Below are positions 18,969 to 63,972 of a stretch of 64,000 nucleotides of DNA, piece after piece. A model generated the notes under the pieces. That model did not search any database and was not told the DNA's origin. It saw only the letters and a program-made list of their open reading frames with translations. Position 1 is the first letter of the stretch; each line of letters opens with the position of its first letter. A program made the position numbers and the translations under genes. Origin of the DNA: Dokdonia sinensis (lineage in GTDB: Bacteria > Bacteroidota > Bacteroidia > Flavobacteriales > Flavobacteriaceae); NCBI RefSeq assembly GCF_003688895.1, contig NZ_REFV01000009.1, positions 1 through 64,000 on the forward strand, given 5' to 3'.

Positions 18969-20124
18969 TAAATACAAGGACGTAGGCGGCGAGGATATTG
19001 TTGTTAAGCGTGAGAAACAACTACTCGAAGATGCTGGTCACGAGGTCGTACAGTTCTTTGCTTTTAATGAGCAAATTAAGAATACCGCAGACAAGCTAAA
19101 AACAGCACTTGGAATTCCGTTTAATTTTTCATTTAAAAAAAAAGTACAAGAGTTTTTAGAAAGAGAAAAGCCAGATGTAGTTCACATTCATAATTTTCTT
19201 CCAGTACTTTCTCCATCTGTGTTTTTTGCTTGCAAGGCGCTTAACTTTCCTGTAATAGTAACACTACATAATTTTAGATTACTCTGTGTAAATGGATTGC
19301 TCTACAGGGATAAACAAGTGTGTGAAGATTGTGTGTCTAAAAAGATGGCATACCCAGGAATAAAACACGGCTGCTATCAAGAATCCTCGCTGGCATCAGT
19401 ATTTCCAGCGGTAAGTAATAGGCTGCATACCTCCTTAGGTACTTGGTATGATAAAATCGACAAAGTCATTTTTCTTTCGGAATTTTCAAAAAATGTTTTT
19501 GATCGCTCCCATTTAAATTTCGCAAAGCAGCAGGTTGTTATTAAGCCTAACTTTATTGCAGATAATGGTTTTTCTTATATAAAAGAAGATTATTATCTTT
19601 TTGTAGGACGTCTTTCTGAAGAAAAAGGAATTAGGACGATATTAAAGGCTTTTGAAAACAGTAGGAAGGAACTTGTTGTTGTAGGAGATGGACCGTTGCG
19701 GCGTGAGGTAGATGCCGCCAGCTTGCGCTCTCCCAATATAAGATGTGTAGGTTTTCAAAATAGTGAGCAACTCAAGGTGCGATATCTTAGCGCAAAAGCC
19801 ACAATTTTTGCTTCAAAGATGTATGAAGGACAACCTCTGGTTATCTTAGAATCCTTATCGTACGGGACGCCAGTAATCTGTCCTAATTTTGGAAACGCAG
19901 GATTACTTATTGAGTCTAACGTTAATGGGATGAAGTATGACTTAGGAGATGCTACTTCCCTTGAAACGACCATAAGAGATTTCGAAAACAGCTCAGATGT
20001 AGAAATCCTGAATAAAGGAGCGCGTAACTCATTTGAACAACAATTTACCGCTCATAAAAACTTGGAGCTATTAGAAGAGATATATAAGCAAGCTATCGAA
20101 AACTCAAACAGCAAAGAAAACTAG
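18946..20124 (+). CDS. Glycosyltransferase family 4
   Basis: A 392 aa GT-B enzyme. The N-terminal acceptor half starts MRIAQIHNKYKDVGGED, a form common in GT4 enzymes. The donor half has YYLFVGRLSEEKGIRTILKAF and the retaining-GT signature MYEGQPLVILESLSYGTPVI, whose Glu residues bind the nucleotide-sugar. A CxxC-like pair (VCEDCVSK) near residue 126 may bind metal. Start ATG lies inside the upstream gene, a spacing typical for this locus. Confidence 0.88.
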   Translation: MRIAQIHNKYKDVGGEDIVVKREKQLLEDAGHEVVQFFAFNEQIKNTADKLKTALGIPFNFSFKKKVQEFLEREKPDVVHIHNFLPVLSPSVFFACKALNFPVIVTLHNFRLLCVNGLLYRDKQVCEDCVSKKMAYPGIKHGCYQESSLASVFPAVSNRLHTSLGTWYDKIDKVIFLSEFSKNVFDRSHLNFAKQQVVIKPNFIADNGFSYIKEDYYLFVGRLSEEKGIRTILKAFENSRKELVVVGDGPLRREVDAASLRSPNIRCVGFQNSEQLKVRYLSAKATIFASKMYEGQPLVILESLSYGTPVICPNFGNAGLLIESNVNGMKYDLGDATSLETTIRDFENSSDVEILNKGARNSFEQQFTAHKNLELLEEIYKQAIENSNSKEN

Positions 20125-37933: not shown

Positions 37934-38120
37934 TGTATAAAAATAGAGAAAGCGCAATGAAATCGAACTCAAAATTGAATTCGAAAACTGAAATCACTTA
38001 TCTAGTGCGTAATTTTAGCGCATTTTAAATGCGCACAAAAAAAGCACGCCTTACAAAGGCGCGCTAGAGGTCGTACGTCATATATCAGATAGCGCCAGCC
38101 ATCAAGTCCTACGTCGTTTT

Positions 38121-38162
38121 TTCGACTTCGACTTCGATTTCAGGTTCGATTTCGATTTCGAG
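38121..38162. repeat. TTCGAY hexamer tandem repeat
   Basis: Seven hexamers in register (TTCGAC, TTCGAC, TTCGAT, TTCAGG, TTCGAT, TTCGAT, TTCGAG) lie just downstream of the reductase gene. The rest of the 37934-38175 gap shows further TTCGA-like pieces near 37960 and no gene. Confidence 0.85.
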
Positions 38163-47686: not shown

Positions 47687-48223
47687 ATGAGTAGAGCAGC
47701 AATACGATACGCAAAAGCAATTCTGGATCTTGCAAAAGATAAAGGAAGTGTGGATGCTGTTTTAAGTGATATGAACTCTGTTACAGCTACACTAGAAGGA
47801 AGTAAAGAACTTCGTGATGCGCTTAACAGTCCTATCATTAAAGCAACTGATAAAAAAGCAATTCTTAGACAGGTTTTTGGACAGAGTACTCCAGAGACTT
47901 TAGGTCTTGTAGACGTTCTTGTAGACAATAGTAGAGCAGATCTTTTAGGAGGTGTAGCAGCTAGTTTTATTACAGAGTATAATAAAGCAAATAACATCAA
48001 GGCTGCCACGGTTACCACCGCAGTTCCGCTCACAGCAGAGTTGGAAGCAAAAGTACTTGCAAAAGTGACTGAACTCACGGGAAGCACAAAAGTGACGCTT
48101 ACAAATGAGGTAGATGAGACCATCATTGGTGGGTTCATCCTCCGTGTGGGAGATACGCAGTACAATGCAAGTATCGCTAGCCAGTTAGGCAAATTAAAAA
48201 GAGAATTTTCAAATAGTTTATAA
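47687..48223 (+). CDS. atpH: F0F1 ATP synthase subunit delta
   Basis: A 178 aa protein starting MSRAAIRYAKAILDLA, the OSCP/delta signature, and ending in ETIIGGFILRVGDTQYNASI near the C terminus. It links stalk b to the top of F1. Confidence 0.95.
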   Translation: MSRAAIRYAKAILDLAKDKGSVDAVLSDMNSVTATLEGSKELRDALNSPIIKATDKKAILRQVFGQSTPETLGLVDVLVDNSRADLLGGVAASFITEYNKANNIKAATVTTAVPLTAELEAKVLAKVTELTGSTKVTLTNEVDETIIGGFILRVGDTQYNASIASQLGKLKREFSNSL

Positions 48224-48244
48224 TAGTCCTGGAGACTAAATCGC

Positions 48245-48266
48245 ACCCTGAGCGAAGTCGAAGGGT
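48245..48266. repeat. CCCTGAGCGAAGTCGAAGGG repeat between atpH and atpA
   Basis: Imperfect palindrome with ACCCT/AGGGT ends. The same family (CTGAGCG-AGTCGAAG) forms the 24 bp insert in the hybrid repeats, and a variant lies near 53142. It sits in the mRNA leader of atpA. Confidence 0.85.
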
Positions 48267-48287
48267 AAATTATTAAATCAGAATAAA

Positions 48288-49865
48288 ATGGCAGAAGTTA
48301 AACCAGCAGAAGTTTCAGCAATTTTAAAGAAACAACTTTCAGGTTTTGAAGCAACAGCTTCACTTGACGAAGTAGGAACAGTACTTACCGTAGGTGACGG
48401 TATTGCACGTGTTTACGGACTTGCAAATGCACAGTACGGAGAGCTTGTAGAGTTCGAAAGTGGTCTTGAAGCTATCGTTTTGAACCTAGAGGAGGACAAT
48501 GTAGGTGTCGTACTTTTAGGAGCGTCAAAGGATATTAAAGAAGGTGACACCGTAAAACGTACACAGCGTATTGCTTCTATTAAGGTAGGAGAAGGTATCG
48601 TAGGTCGTGTGGTAAACACCCTAGGTTTTCCTATAGACGGGAAAGGTCCTATCACTGGTGAAACTTATGATATGCCACTAGAGCGTAAAGCACCAGGTGT
48701 TGTTTTCCGTGAGCCGGTAACGGAGCCGTTACAAACGGGAATCAAATCTATCGATGCGATGATCCCAGTAGGTAGAGGACAGCGTGAGCTTGTAATCGGT
48801 GACCGTCAGACTGGAAAGTCTACCGTGTGTATCGATACCATTCTTAACCAAAAAGAATTTTACGATGCTGGTGAGCCAGTATATTGTATATACGTCGCTA
48901 TAGGTCAAAAAGCATCTACGGTTGCACTTATTGCAAACGTACTTGAGGAGGCTGGAGCACTTGCTTACACAACTATTGTAGCAGCAAACGCATCTGACCC
49001 TGCAGCGATGCAGGTATATGCACCATTTGCTGGAGCAGCAATCGGAGAGTTTTTCCGTGATACAGGTCGTCCTGCATTAATTGTATATGATGATCTTTCT
49101 AAGCAAGCAGTTGCTTACCGTGAGATATCGCTTCTACTTCGTCGTCCACCGGGACGTGAGGCATATCCTGGAGATGTATTCTTCTTACACTCAAGACTAC
49201 TTGAGCGTGCTGCAAAGGTGATTAATGATGATACCATTGCTGCAAATATGAATGATCTTCCAGATAGCCTTAAACCGCTAGTAAAAGGTGGAGGATCACT
49301 TACAGCACTTCCTATCATTGAGACACAAGCTGGAGACGTATCTGCTTATATTCCTACAAACGTAATTTCGATTACAGATGGACAGATTTTCCTAGATGGA
49401 GATTTATTTAACTCTGGGGTTCGTCCTGCGATTAACGTAGGTATCTCGGTATCTCGTGTAGGAGGTAACGCTCAGATTAAGTCTATGAAGAAGGTATCAG
49501 GTACTTTAAAACTGGATCAAGCAGCTTTCCGTGAACTGGAGGCTTTTGCAAAGTTTGGGTCCGACCTCGATGCAGCGACATTAAACGTGATTGAAAAAGG
49601 AAAACGTAACGTAGAAATACTAAAGCAAGCAGAGAACACACCATTTACGGTAGAGGACCAGATTGCCATTATCTATGCAGGTTCTAAGAACTTACTACGT
49701 AATGTACCTATAGATAAGATCAAGGAGTTTGAGACAGAATACCTTGAGTTCTTAAATGCAAAGCATAGGGATGTTCTTGACACGTTAAAAGCTGGAAAGC
49801 TTACGGATGAAGTAACAGACACACTTGCAGCGGTCGTAAAAGATCTTTCTGCAAAGTATAACTAG
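48288..49865 (+). CDS. atpA: F0F1 ATP synthase subunit alpha
   Basis: A 525 aa regulatory nucleotide-binding subunit. P-loop [30 protein letters not shown] and [20 protein letters not shown] (residues flanking the catalytic interface) are intact. The catalytic beta subunit gene is not in this operon, as in other Bacteroidetes. The natural [10 protein letters not shown] is a conserved alpha-subunit motif, not a palindrome copy. Confidence 0.97.
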
Positions 49866-49895
49866 TGGTATTTCGCTTTCGCGAAATAAGTTATG

Positions 49896-50329
49896 AGTTC
49901 AGAGTTATGAGTGCGGAGTTAGTTAGAGAGCACTTCTGTTTTGAGACTAATAAATAAAGTAAAATGGCATTTGGCGAAAGTCCTATTCGAATAAAGAGTT
50001 TCGCTTTTGCCTGTGAGATTGTTCATTATTGTGATACGTTAAAAAATAATCGCGATTATGAATTAGCCTCCCAATTATTAAGAAGCGGAACGAGTATTGG
50101 AGCCAATACTAGAGAAGCACAAAGAGGAGTCAGTAAAAAAGACTTCAAAAATAAATTTGGAATTGCTCTAAAAGAAGCAGACGAAACAAAGTATTGGTTA
50201 GAAATACTTCAAGCGACTGGAAGAGACGTGCCGGATGGAATGATGCATAAGTGTGAAGAGTTAATACGAATTTTAGTATCAATCACTAAAAACTCTTAAC
50301 TCCGCACTCCGCACTCTTAACTCCGCACT
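49896..50329 (+). mobile_element. Intervening-sequence-like element between atpA and atpG
   Basis: The outer arms 49896-49919 and 50306-50329 are 24 nt inverted repeats (21 of 24 match). Each is made of two tandem GTGCGGAGTTA-like pieces, and an extra copy TTAACTCCGCACT lies at 50297-50308. They enclose one four-helix-bundle gene whose stop codon (50297-50299) falls inside the repeat. The layout is the same as in the element at 63554-63972, though the arm sequence differs. It resembles 23S rRNA intervening sequences, where complementary ends pair and are cut by RNase III. Confidence 0.7.
49964..50299 (+). CDS. Four-helix-bundle protein, 23S rRNA intervening-sequence protein family
   Basis: A 111 aa helical protein. 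LASQLLRSGTSIGANTREA and KKDFKNKFGIALKEADETKY (split here by one residue from YWLEIL) are the family hallmarks. Members are encoded in 23S rRNA intervening sequences and also include the Avd proteins of diversity-generating retroelements. It may bind RNA or DNA; no activity is established. It interrupts the atp operon, in the same direction, within an inverted-arm element. It belongs to a different branch from the copy at 63567. Confidence 0.88.
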   Translation: MAFGESPIRIKSFAFACEIVHYCDTLKNNRDYELASQLLRSGTSIGANTREAQRGVSKKDFKNKFGIALKEADETKYWLEILQATGRDVPDGMMHKCEELIRILVSITKNS

Positions 50330-50350
50330 TAATATTCAACATTATTAAGA

Positions 50351-51214
50351 ATGGCCAATTTAAAGGAAATTAGAAACAGAATCACCTCCGTATCTTCTAC
50401 GATGCAGATTACAAGTGCCATGAAAATGGTATCTGCTGCAAAGTTGAAGAAAGCGCAGGATGCCATTACGGCAATGCGACCATATTCTGATAAGCTTACC
50501 GAGCTTTTACAGAACTTGAGCGCAACCATTGATTCTGATGGAGGAAGTAAACTTGCAGAGGATCGTGAAGTGAAGAAAGTACTCATTGTAGCTATTTCTT
50601 CTAACAGAGGTCTTGCTGGAGCATTTAACTCAAACATCGTAAAAGCTGCAAAGCATTTAACTGAAAATAAATATGCGGGTAAAGACGTAAGTTTTCTTAC
50701 GTTAGGTAAGAAGGCAAATGATATCTTAAGAAAGACGCATACGGTGTTGGCAAATAATAATGAGATTTTTGATGAATTAACATTTGAAAATGTCTCTACT
50801 ATCGCCGAAGATTTAATGCATCGTTTCGAAGAAGGTCAGTACGACCGTATCGATATTATGTATAATAAGTTTAAAAATGCTGCCACTCAAATTGTAACTA
50901 CAGAGCAGTATTTACCTATTGTTGCTACTGCACAAGAAGAAAATGTGAGTACGGTAGATTATGTTTTCGAACCCTCTAAGGAAGATATTGTAGAGGGATT
51001 AATTCCTAAAGCATTAAAGACACAACTTTTTAAAGGCATAAGAGACTCTGTAGCCTCAGAACACGGAGCTCGTATGACCGCAATGCACAAAGCAACAGAT
51101 AACGCTACAGAGCTTAGAGATGCGCTTAAGTTGCAATACAACAAAGCACGTCAAGCCGCAATTACAAACGAAATCCTAGAGATCGTAGGTGGGGCAGAGG
51201 CGCTAAATAACTAA
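50351..51214 (+). CDS. atpG: F0F1 ATP synthase subunit gamma
   Basis: The central rotor shaft, 287 aa. The coiled-coil ends are MANLKEIRNRITSVSSTMQI-like at the start and YNKARQAAITNEILEIVGGA at the end, with the family motif SSNRGLAGAFN in between. It is the last atp gene; a terminator lies about 50 bp on. atpD and atpC are elsewhere. Confidence 0.96.
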   Translation: MANLKEIRNRITSVSSTMQITSAMKMVSAAKLKKAQDAITAMRPYSDKLTELLQNLSATIDSDGGSKLAEDREVKKVLIVAISSNRGLAGAFNSNIVKAAKHLTENKYAGKDVSFLTLGKKANDILRKTHTVLANNNEIFDELTFENVSTIAEDLMHRFEEGQYDRIDIMYNKFKNAATQIVTTEQYLPIVATAQEENVSTVDYVFEPSKEDIVEGLIPKALKTQLFKGIRDSVASEHGARMTAMHKATDNATELRDALKLQYNKARQAAITNEILEIVGGAEALNN

Positions 51215-51261
51215 ACAGACGCCGCCTTTCAGCTACGCTCAGGGCTCGCTCAATATCAAAT

Positions 51262-51296
51262 AAAAAATCCCTTCCTTATTAGGTTGGGATTTTTTA
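51262..51296 (+). terminator. Terminator of the atp operon
   Basis: AAAAAATCCC/GGGATTTTTT stem with a CC/GG pair above a TT/TT internal loop, followed by TTTTT-rich sequence. It can act on both strands. A short CTACGCTCAGGG repeat remnant precedes it. Confidence 0.85.
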
Positions 51297-51366
51297 TTTT
51301 CAATCAAGGCTTGAATTGAGGCTTTAATATTTTGGTCGGGCTTTTCAAAGAAGCACCGATCAATCA

Positions 51367-51465
51367 TCATAATACCGTATTAAGAACTCCGAACAAAAGG
51401 CTAAAGCCTGAGGCGATCTTACCAAACTTAATCAAAGGCTTTTCATTCTTCGCTCTAAACCTCAT
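51367..51465 (-). CDS. Possible 32 aa small protein overlapping the preceding fragment
   Basis: An ATG (51465) overlaps the TGA of the upstream start-less frame as ATGA. It encodes 32 residues with a basic start (MRFRAKNEKPLIKFGK) and a hydrophobic end (SGFSLLFGVLNTVL), a plausible membrane peptide. No family recognised. It may be real only if the upstream frame is translated. Confidence 0.35.
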   Translation of the reverse strand: MRFRAKNEKPLIKFGKIASGFSLLFGVLNTVL

Positions 51466-51776
51466 GCCAGAAACTTTGCATTTTTAGATTTAGTAATATC
51501 GGGGCAAACTCTAATTATGCTATCATTGAGTCTAAACTCAAAAGCGACCTTGTTCTTGTAAGCACCCGCTTGACCAGCGTTTGTAAAAAAATCAAAAATT
51601 ACAAATAATGCGCTTGTAAGTCCATCTGTTTTTTCCTCTTGAAAATGTACTTCCTTAATATTCTCGTAAGAGTATTTCTGAAGTTTTTCTTTTGAACGTG
51701 CATCAGAAACTACAAATGTCTCCTCCTTAAGTTCAATGGAAAACAGCAGTTTTTCTCTGAGTATGTATTTCTTTAA
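51462..51776 (-). pseudogene. Coding-like frame without a start codon, just after hemB
   Basis: A 104-codon frame, bounded by TAG (51779-51777) and TGA (51464-51462), has no ATG, GTG or TTG near its beginning. Its product looks protein-like, with alternating strands (LLFSIELKEETFVVSD, KYSYENIKEVHFQEEK) and a hydrophobic turn SALFVIFDFF, somewhat like a PH-type fold. It overlaps the hemB stop by 4 bases. It is probably a 5'-truncated gene, or one using a rare start such as ATA or CTG. Confidence 0.45.
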
Positions 51777-52756
51777 CTAATAAACTTCACCACATCCTTA
51801 GCAAAATAACTAGCAATCACCTGCGCACCGGCGCGCTTGATTGCGGTGACTTGTTCCATCATTACCGCATCGTGATCTAGCCATCCTTTCTCAGCTGCAG
51901 CTTTGAGCATTGCGTATTCGCCGCTTACTTGATAGACGGCGATAGGGACATTTACAGTCTCTCGTAAATCTCGTACGATATCTAAGTAACACAGGCCTGG
52001 TTTTACCATCACAATATCTGCGCCTTCTTCGATGTCCATAAGAGTTTCTTTAATGGCTTCGTCACGGTTTGCAAAGTCCATCTGGTATGTTTTTTTGTCT
52101 TTTGGGATATCTTTTAAGTCAACAGGCGCGCTATCCAACGCATCACGGAAAGGGCCGTAAAACGAACTCGCATACTTTGCACTGTAACTCATAATACCAG
52201 TATTATAAAAACCTTCATCTTCTAGTAGCGTACGCATCTCAAAAATACGTCCGTCCATCATATCACTAGGGGCGAGAAAATCGGCGCCGGCGCGGGCGTG
52301 GCTAAGACCCATCTCTGCTAGTACCGCGGTGGTGTCATCGTTTACAATCTCGCCGTTGCCTACAATGCCGTCGTGACCAAAGGACGAATAAGGATCTAGC
52401 GCCACATCTGTCATCACCAACATTTCTGGGCAGGCATCTTTTACCGTTTTGATGGCGCGTTGCATTAAGCCATCTGCGTTTAAAGCCTCGGTGCCCGAGT
52501 TGTCTTTCAGGTTATCGGGAACTTTTACAAACAGCAATACCGCTTTTAATCCCATCGCCCAGAGTTCTTTCACTTCTTTGGCAAGCAGGTCCAGACTAAA
52601 ACGATAATAGTCAGGCATTGAGTCTATTTCTTCTTTTATGCCCTTTCCTTCCACCACAAAAAGTGGGACGAGAAAATCATTCGGCGTGATGTAGGTTTCC
52701 CGTACGAGTGAGCGTATGGCTTCTGAGGAGCGGAGTCTGCGGTTTCTTATGAGCAT
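51773..52756 (-). CDS. hemB: Delta-aminolevulinic acid dehydratase (porphobilinogen synthase)
   Basis: Condenses two aminolevulinates to porphobilinogen. The 327 aa protein from the ATG at 52756 has the two active-site Lys regions, SYSAKYASSFYGPF and MVKPGLCYLDI, and the metal-site area TDVALDPYSSFGHDG. The position of the three Cys of zinc enzymes is not kept, which suggests a Mg-type enzyme. An upstream ATG (52849) would add 31 residues encoded by repeat-like sequence and is rejected. It runs leftward with hemF and hemE, about 6.5 kb away. Confidence 0.95.
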   Translation of the reverse strand: MLIRNRRLRSSEAIRSLVRETYITPNDFLVPLFVVEGKGIKEEIDSMPDYYRFSLDLLAKEVKELWAMGLKAVLLFVKVPDNLKDNSGTEALNADGLMQRAIKTVKDACPEMLVMTDVALDPYSSFGHDGIVGNGEIVNDDTTAVLAEMGLSHARAGADFLAPSDMMDGRIFEMRTLLEDEGFYNTGIMSYSAKYASSFYGPFRDALDSAPVDLKDIPKDKKTYQMDFANRDEAIKETLMDIEEGADIVMVKPGLCYLDIVRDLRETVNVPIAVYQVSGEYAMLKAAAEKGWLDHDAVMMEQVTAIKRAGAQVIASYFAKDVVKFIS

Positions 52757-52846
52757 TTTTATTAGTTTAGGTGTGTATGAGTTTAGGTGTTTAAGAGGTT
52801 TTTTATTGTTCCGGAGGTTTCGATACATCCCGACCTGTAGTCGGGA

Positions 52847-53197
52847 CACTCAACCACCTTTGATAGTCCTGTTGTTTTTACTGTACAAAGGTGGTTGAGT
52901 GATTTATGTTGAAGCGACAGCGCAAACATAAATTGTATCGAAACTACCGATTCTAGATAAAAACACTCAACCACCTTAGATAGTTCTGTTATTTTTACTG
53001 TACAAAGGTGGTTGAGTGATTTATGTTGAAGCGATAGCGCAAACATAAATCGTATCGAAACTACCGACTCTAAATGAAATCATTCAATCACCTTAAATTG
53101 TTATATAAATTAACTCACAATGGTGGTTCAGTGATTCACGCACCCTGAGCGAGCCGAAGTATACGTGACTTGTATCGAAACCTCCAGAATGAAATTA
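52847..53197. repeat. Three-unit 117 bp tandem repeat with internal palindromes
   Basis: Units start at 52847, 52964 and 53081 (period exactly 117). The first two are about 93% alike and the third is decayed. Each unit has a 16 bp stem, CACTCAACCACCTTTG pairing with CAAAGGTGGTTGAGTG, then a second TTTATGTT...AACATAAA hairpin and TGTATCGAAAC. A hairpin CCCGACCTGTAGTCGGG precedes the first unit. The last unit ends in a CCCTGAGCGAG-type repeat. This fills the gap between hemB and the helicase. Confidence 0.92.
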
Positions 53198-63542: not shown

Positions 63543-63553
63543 AACTTGGCTGT

Positions 63554-63972
63554 TGGGTATTAGCTTCTAGCTATTAGCTTTTTTGATTTTAGTAATAAGG
63601 CTATTGATCATTTTGGCTTCTTGTATAAGAAGTATTTTGATCTCCTTTGTCTCTTCCTGTGAAAGATATTTTAATTCTTCACAAATTGTTACTTGGGTCT
63701 CAACTTCAAATAATGAACCCATTGCGATTTCTAAAAATCGTTTAAATTCTACGTCACTATTTCGGCTGCAACCTTCAGCGATATTACTAGGGATGGAAAC
63801 AACAGCGCGAGTTATTTGACTTTTAAGACCAAATTTTTCAGTTGTAGGAAGCTTTTGAGCAAGAGCGTAAGTATGCTTTACGATTTGAATTCCATTTTTC
63901 CAGATCTCTAAATTCCTGTAATTTCTCATTACTTAACTTATTTTCTCGCTAATAGCTAACTGCTAATAGCCA
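63554..63972 (-). mobile_element. Intervening-sequence-like element upstream of hemE
   Basis: Inverted arms 63554-63578 and 63948-63972 (25 nt, 21 match), each made of two tandem GCTAATAGC-type pieces, around one four-helix-bundle gene. The stop codon (63569-63567) lies inside the downstream arm, as in the element at 49896-50329, but the arm sequence is different. It is 11 bp from the hemE start. Confidence 0.7.
63567..63929 (-). CDS. Four-helix-bundle protein (23S rRNA intervening-sequence protein family)
   Basis: A 120 aa helical protein. MRNYRNLEIWKNGIQIVKHT is the classic S23 start; KFGLKSQITRAVVSIPSNIA and EFKRFLEIAMGSLFEVETQ complete the family match. It lies on the same strand as hemE and may share its transcript. 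It belongs to a different branch of the family from the copy at 49964, so the two elements are not recent duplicates of each other. Confidence 0.92.
   Translation of the reverse strand: MRNYRNLEIWKNGIQIVKHTYALAQKLPTTEKFGLKSQITRAVVSIPSNIAEGCSRNSDVEFKRFLEIAMGSLFEVETQVTICEELKYLSQEETKEIKILLIQEAKMINSLITKIKKANS

Follow-up and report, generated by a model that had tools for sequence, protein, structure and literature searches.

In the genome of Dokdonia sinensis (GCF_003688895.1), the IVP (four-helix-bundle) genes are framed by inverted arms that are built from short tandem units, and the same is true of most IVP genes that we tested elsewhere. Genes for 'four helix bundle protein' are frequent and, to our knowledge, have no explanation. 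We focused on one that lies between atpA and atpG in a stretch of 64,000 nt (the window: NZ_REFV01000009.1, positions 1-64,000, forward strand), and we conclude that the atp block is probably an inserted element of the same kind as intervening sequences (IVSs), from a branch that dwells in operons and phages and whose arms would be recognised by the IVP protein. Three results stand out most among what is new: unit-built arms go with IVP genes, unit length clusters on the IVP protein tree, and the elements in cells are oriented opposite to those in phage-type contigs. With arms and unit length tied to a protein lineage, a vague selfish-RNA idea becomes a testable protein-repeat system.

The original prediction had placed an IVP gene between atpA and atpG, and both the open reading frames, all on the forward strand, and the profile matches agree with it (Table 1). 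The product scores above the curated cut-offs of both profiles (PF05635, 74.3 bits against 33.8; TIGR02436, 95.9 against 24). The imperfect 24-nt inverted arms that had been described (49896-49919 and 50306-50329, 88% complementary) were found again and can be extended to 35 nt at 80% complementarity, giving a whole element of 445 bp (49887-50331). The stop codon of the ORF does lie inside the downstream repeat, where it forms the first three nucleotides of the right arm (50297-50299). The tandem unit had been misread: it is not the 11-nt GTGCGGAGTTA, which is a mixture, but a heptad, GAGTNNN (GAGTTAT, GAGTTCA, GAGTGCG). The left arm reads GAGTTCA GAGTTAT GAGTGCG GAGTTA, and the right arm, in reverse complement, GAGTTAA GAGTGCG GAGTGCG GAGTTA. 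IVP is the sole gene in the element, in which we saw no transposase, recombinase or target-site duplication; at the atp boundary no duplication was visible by eye, among spacers that are too variable to exclude one. No Rfam family reached its gathering score within 48000-52000.

Table 1. Parts of the two IVP elements in the window and the host genes of the atp element.
Feature	Coordinates	Strand	Basis or remark
atpA, upstream host gene	48288..49865	+	ORF; TIGR00962, E 3.5e-229
Palindromic spacer piece ATTTCGCTTTCGCGAAAT	49870..49887	.	similar pieces in most element-free spacers
Left arm, heptad units GAGTNNN	49887..49921	+	left edge visible against element-free spacers such as that of G014
IVP / four-helix-bundle gene, 111 aa	49964..50299	+	PF05635, E 1.1e-20; TIGR02436, E 1.6e-27
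Right arm, inverted heptad units, holds IVP stop codon	50297..50331	+	repeat comparison
atpG, downstream host gene	50351..51214	+	ORF; TIGR01146, E 6.5e-93
Arm of second element	63546..63578	-	overlaps stop end of its IVP gene
IVP gene of second element	63567..63929	-	PF05635, 124 bits
Other arm of second element	63948..63972	-	arm-pair scan

Three of the checks proposed along with the prediction were the atpA-atpG spacing in relatives, the search for other IVP genes with such arms, and the folding of the arms. For the first, we compared the atp spacer in 16 genomes of the genus (our own included; 18 were searched). In 13 of them the spacer is short and without the element, and an element with GAGTTAT-type arms is present in the other three (G000, G009 and G010). 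Among these three carrier species dN/dS was 0.05-0.12 for IVP and 0.05-0.09 for atpG, with dS near or above 1, and we conclude that purifying selection acts on the IVP gene at atp. A single recent insertion common to the three congeners was rejected, because the atpG tree sets G010 apart from G000 and G009. That tree, together with the same type of IVP at this site in other genera, argues that the atp element is an old resident that has often been lost or replaced. The 14 best hits to the atp IVP in the family (window included), each from another genus, all lie between atpA and atpG, and therefore the atp-type IVP has not moved recently; stops occur inside IVP in four of these 14. The other 16 family loci that we fetched are located away from atpA-atpG. 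The IVP tree groups G190, G048 and G163 (97/94), whereas a tree of AtpA and AtpG splits them (93/94, 99/96), and this conflict suggests transfer or replacement at the atp site, besides loss.

The groES-groEL spacer holds a second such history. Parsing covered 14 of 16 spacers (G000, G013 and G012, a partial match, were left out, and G008 gave no hit). Two carry an element (G001 and G016), four close relatives (G003, G004, G006 and G011) have only a heptad array, beside groEL, and eight have neither element nor array, with two heptad-like units after the groES stop in G014. GroEL of G001 and G016 is 100% identical to that of G004 over 474 aa, and the right arm of G001 and G016 closely resembles the solo array of G003. 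This is most simply read as IVP and the left arm having been gained recently where an array was already resident. At both atp and groES-groEL, the element is thus present in some genomes and absent from others at a site with defined ends, as for an insertion element. It is possible, if somewhat doubtful as a general account, that an IVP gene enters beside a solo heptad array and that the second arm arises as an inverted copy of this array; each locus would then have its own motif because the second arm was copied from what was resident there. The solo and both-armed groES-groEL spacers and the likeness of the G001/G016 right arm to the G003 array are what this account would leave behind, and solo arrays with arm-like motifs do exist elsewhere in the D. 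sinensis genome. However, the case comes from one site, the solo array might be what is left of an earlier element, and G001 and G016 are without a spacer piece kept by their relatives, which implies more than simple insertion. For the insertion-type element that we favour, a heptad array that already stands at a site could be taken into use when the element is gained, as may have happened at groES-groEL.

A profile search returned 13 matches to PF05635 in the D. sinensis genome, 12 of them above the cut-off. In oriented flanks, short-period inverted arms could be seen by eye at all 13 loci, weakly at L002. By arm score, 12 of the 13 lay above the 95th percentile of mispaired loci; L005, where one unit is repeated ten times and a variant of it four times, fell just under it. 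A repeat search found a flanking inverted pair of at least 18 nt at 11 of the 13. The second check therefore came out as proposed. Units differ by locus (GATTTGA, AGTGTCT, GGATGCT, ATTAGGT, GTGAGCC, AATTAGC, AAAGTAG, AAATCAC and others), and periods of 7 and 8 both occur in this one genome, with L003 called as 8-nt; L013 was called as 6-nt. One of these loci is the second element in the window (Table 1); the next gene after its IVP on the minus strand is presumably hemE.

The purifying selection on IVP, and its shared site in 14 genomes of the family, each of another genus, would also be found if it were an ordinary operon gene that serves the host and is inherited vertically, flanked by general intergenic simple repeats that had grown by slippage. 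As a control, we searched for short-period inverted pairs 100-1100 nt apart in the window and in a further 400 kb of the genome that contain no IVP genes. The scan recovered both IVP loci of the window (atp and 63546-63972) and one hexamer pair (37953-38161), and it found no arm pair in this distance range in the 400 kb or in one shuffle of those 400 kb. Lag-7 runs numbered nine in 3.7 kb of IVP flanks, against nine in 400 kb elsewhere in the genome. Heptad runs do therefore occur away from IVP genes, and two of these nine solo runs have an inverted partner less than 100 nt away, outside the range of the scan; in addition, one survey describes repeats of 7 nt as more frequent than those of any other length from 5 to 11 nt in most of its genomes (PMC4679880). 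General simple-repeat noise is nonetheless disfavoured by the 400-kb control and the shuffles. With the lag-7 enrichment and the confinement of arm pairs in this range to IVP genes weighed against it, we consider an ordinary host gene amid slippage repeats very unlikely. The hexamer pair itself consists of a TTCGAC/TTCGAT repeat and, about 135 nt off, a weak inverted partner, with no IVP gene between.

Arms of this kind are found across bacteria. Among Bacteroidota, 62 of 89 loci, our own 13 included, had arms above the 95th percentile of mispaired arms, as did 63 of 77 loci from many phyla (among the matches listed) and 25 of the 29 loci used out of 32 from IMG/VR; 27 of the 89 and, among the matches listed, 14 of the 77 had no significant arms. 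The Bacteroidota set was 98 loci before we left out three without a profile hit, two without ATG and four of odd length, and the many-phyla set was the best 80 of a longer list, from which three loci with short flanks were left out. Since loci were mostly best matches per genome or the best 80 of a longer list, orthologues are over-represented. Lag-7 runs were present in 47 of 178 Bacteroidota flanks and in 51 of 154 many-phyla flanks (among the matches listed), and in none of the shuffled flanks of either set or of 178 control segments. Lag 8 was noisier, with 14 real against 4 shuffled flanks in the many-phyla set (among the matches listed). Eight 23S rRNA probe strings, searched against the best 80 many-phyla loci, gave one match, at L181, about 1.9 kb from IVP. 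The original prediction had suggested a class of intervening-sequence-like elements in operons; this class exists and is far wider than proposed, extending to many phyla and to phage contigs. Separately, L122 contains at 19821-19921 a GAGTTAT-type heptad hairpin without an IVP gene, with arms about 10 nt apart and the motif of the atp arms. It is possibly an empty or derived element.

The length of the unit follows the protein. Among the 164 of 173 loci used, a period could be called in 101, as 7 in 74, 8 in 21, 9 in three, 6 in two and 11 in one, with no call in the other 63; shuffled flanks gave 2 calls in 164. On a 100-row IVP protein tree, the 7/8 label required six changes, compared with 19.3 in shuffles, and none of 500 shuffles was as low. 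We conclude that unit length (7 or 8) clusters on this tree, which was built from few columns and has 51 of 97 inner branches open. Twelve rows, all of period 8, form a clade (SH-aLRT 98) that joins Bacteroidota with contigs labelled KSB1, Nitrospirae, Desulfobacteraceae and Lambdaproteobacteria (L145-L148), whose hosts may be misassigned because the contigs come from binned metagenomes. The remaining 9 of the 21 period-8 rows fall outside this clade, and L003, L029 and L032 among them form a starred clade. Within the clade of 12, six share one host site, before a gene beginning MINLF, and five others have five different downstream genes. Related elements at the MINLF site carry different 8-nt units, in both arms (CTGAGTAG, AGGTTCAA and AATCTAAG), so that the sequence of the unit turns over at one site while its length and the matching of the arms stay. 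The clustering on the protein tree, the two periods in one genome and the presence in phage-type contigs also speak against slippage repeats around an ordinary host gene. As for residues that might set unit length, no mark of the 8-nt clade was common to the second 8-nt clade, and this candidate was rejected.

The unit-core analysis took in 69 of the 74 period-7 and 18 of the 21 period-8 loci. On the sense strand of the 5' arm it yielded a degenerate core, AGTNRHN (2.85 bits against a null of 2.37, sd 0.09, from 20 permutations), and units were richer in G than in C at 59 of the 69 period-7 and 17 of the 18 period-8 loci. Median arm length was 35 nt at period 7 (43 loci) and 40 nt at period 8 (15 loci), which is five units in each case, and these medians rest on a score cut (36 or more) that itself shapes arm lengths. 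The solved IVP relatives 2gsc and 2rld have five chains each, and a Xanthomonas relative is described as a homopentamer (PMC4990558). The match between five units per arm and five protein chains is suggestive only. From the correlation between protein lineage and unit length, we infer that the IVP protein recognises the arms; it would bind the arm units, perhaps with one protomer per unit, and would thereby fix the unit length. As a counterpoint, the arms and the IVP gene could simply be inherited together.

Both neighbouring genes run in the sense of IVP at 82 of 93 cellular loci, compared with an expected fraction of 0.31 from the directions of neighbouring genes in this genome. A second gene caller gave 79 of 89 and 54 of 75 loci with IVP in sense to both neighbours. 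Besides atpA-atpG, the host spacers include what we take from protein starts to be fadB-thiolase, groES-groEL, nuoC-nuoD, suf, nqr and hisH-hisA. At L147, IVP stands just before a gene that we assume from its start to be cas2-like, and this fits residence in many kinds of operon. Sense orientation would let the host operon express the IVP gene. As a side observation, two IVP genes of D. sinensis (L001 and L002) lie on both sides of a thiolase gene, and pairs of IVP genes about 1.6 kb apart occur in other genomes, which hints at a hot spot in the fad operon.

In IMG/VR contigs (L262-L293), heptad-armed IVP elements adjoin phage structural genes, mostly antisense, so that the cellular bias is reversed. 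With the caller used for cells, the neighbours of the 32 loci, near-duplicate contigs among them, were (-,-) at 20, (+,-) at 5, (-,+) at 2 and (+,+) at 1; a cruder stop-to-stop caller gave 11, 8, 5 and 3, respectively, of 29 loci. When 10 neighbour proteins chosen from 18 loci were compared with PHROGs, eight matched, to major head, head decoration, virion structural, terminase, tail sheath and minor tail proteins. In 18 of 22 IMG/VR calls, the G-rich arm was the one on the 5' side of the IVP gene itself, which indicates that arm polarity belongs to the element and not to the host transcript. We conclude that cellular elements lie in sense in operons and that the IMG/VR copies are mostly antisense between phage-type genes.

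Sense orientation in cells is also what would be expected if the element acted in RNA, with arms that pair in the operon mRNA and RNase III cutting the stem and removing the IVP piece, thereby parting the atpA message from that of atpG and setting the ratio of the two. The Coxiella burnetii 23S IVS, which has the same plan, is described as excised by RNase III (PMC4990558), and the third check, on folding, agreed with arm pairing. The predicted RNA fold of 49867-50350 had z = -4.87, with none of 100 shuffles as good and the atp arms paired. Across 84 elements with strong arms, at least half of the left arm was cross-paired in 69 and none of it in 5; the arms of L001 were unpaired. Selection on RNA pairing should favour G-U among the mismatches. 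From 160 of 164 loci used, mismatches were counted in the 84 with a score of 36 or more, and we found G-U 128 times and A-C 139 times (401 and 452 in mispaired controls). The mismatch spectrum thus gave no support to conservation of the stem at the RNA level, although arm copying could mask a wobble excess. Because there is no G-U excess, it is more likely at the DNA level that the arms are kept matched, through copying or recognition. Removal at the RNA level also gives no reason for unit length to cluster on the protein tree, the IMG/VR copies have kept their arms although most of them lie antisense to flanking genes, and 5 of the 84 elements have no cross-arm pair. Taken together, we regard this RNA-level explanation as unlikely. 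For the insertion-type element, the two arms may instead be kept matched by arm-to-arm copying in DNA. The atp arms possibly fold in mRNA all the same, and by analogy with 23S IVSs RNase III cutting could be a consequence.

Among known systems, 23S rRNA IVSs share the plan of the atp element, as the original prediction had proposed. That of C. burnetii is described as 428 nt long, with a 28-bp stem cleaved by RNase III, an S23p ORF in sense and, before this ORF, two to three tandem heptamers GACAGAT that vary among strains (PMC4990558). The two thus share a sense IVP/S23p ORF, a length of about 430-445 nt, complementary ends of about 28-35 nt and tandem heptameric repeats in the 5' part (GAGTNNN at atp). 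They differ in host site, which is helix 9, 25 or 45 of 23S rRNA in one case and atpA-atpG in the other, and the elements described here lie between protein genes of operons or between phage-type genes. In the elements described here, 7- and 8-nt units fall into clusters on the protein tree, and the atp IVP is under purifying selection, whereas the C. burnetii ORF was judged expendable by its authors (PMC4990558). With the same plan at another location, we file the atp element as an operon- and phage-dwelling variant of the IVS kind. The function and origin of 23S rRNA IVSs have been described as unclear (PMC4990558).

A relation to Avd, the accessory protein of diversity-generating retroelements, is seen at the level of profiles only: L001 (E 3e-7) and two IVPs from IMG/VR contigs (6e-4 and 5e-6) match PHROG 3206 ('Avd protein of DGR'), and the IVP of the window does not. 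REP/RAYT and MITE-type elements are small genes or elements with inverted repeats dispersed between genes; here, in contrast, IVP is the sole gene, there is no Y1 transposase, and the arms are made of tandem units that differ by locus. TAACTGA heptamers in Beggiatoaceae, Cyanobacteria and Bacteroidetes are described as intergenic tandem direct repeats, mostly upstream of start codons (PMC4679880), and the reverse complement of TAACTGA rotates to AGTTATC, which fits the AGTNRHN core. The available portions of that paper contain no link of heptamers to IVP genes, with no hits for 'intervening', 'four helix' or 'S23', and in the open-licence PMC literature we found no description of an armed IVP class or of a unit-length rule. 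Armed IVP elements could be where some of the unexplained heptanucleotide repeats in bacterial genomes come from.

A broader proposal, which we put forward tentatively, is that IVP could act as both ruler and maintenance factor for a transposase-less, pan-bacterial kind of insertion element. The IVP clade would set the unit (7, 8, perhaps 9 nt), and new insertions would take over a resident heptad array for one arm and form the second as its inverted copy. Such elements would lie in sense in host operons and antisense in phage late operons, and 23S rRNA IVSs would be a special case that was first noticed because it fragments rRNA.

Two other repeats were observed in the window. The palindrome CGCTTTCGCGAAAGCG, or variants of it, stands directly 3' of stop codons in the operon spacers that we compared in the genus, including 49870-49887. 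At 52783-53046 there are two near-identical copies of about 100 nt with inverted ends (ACTCAACCACCTT ... AAGGTGGTTGAGT), and these copies open a repetitive ORF that is probably spurious.
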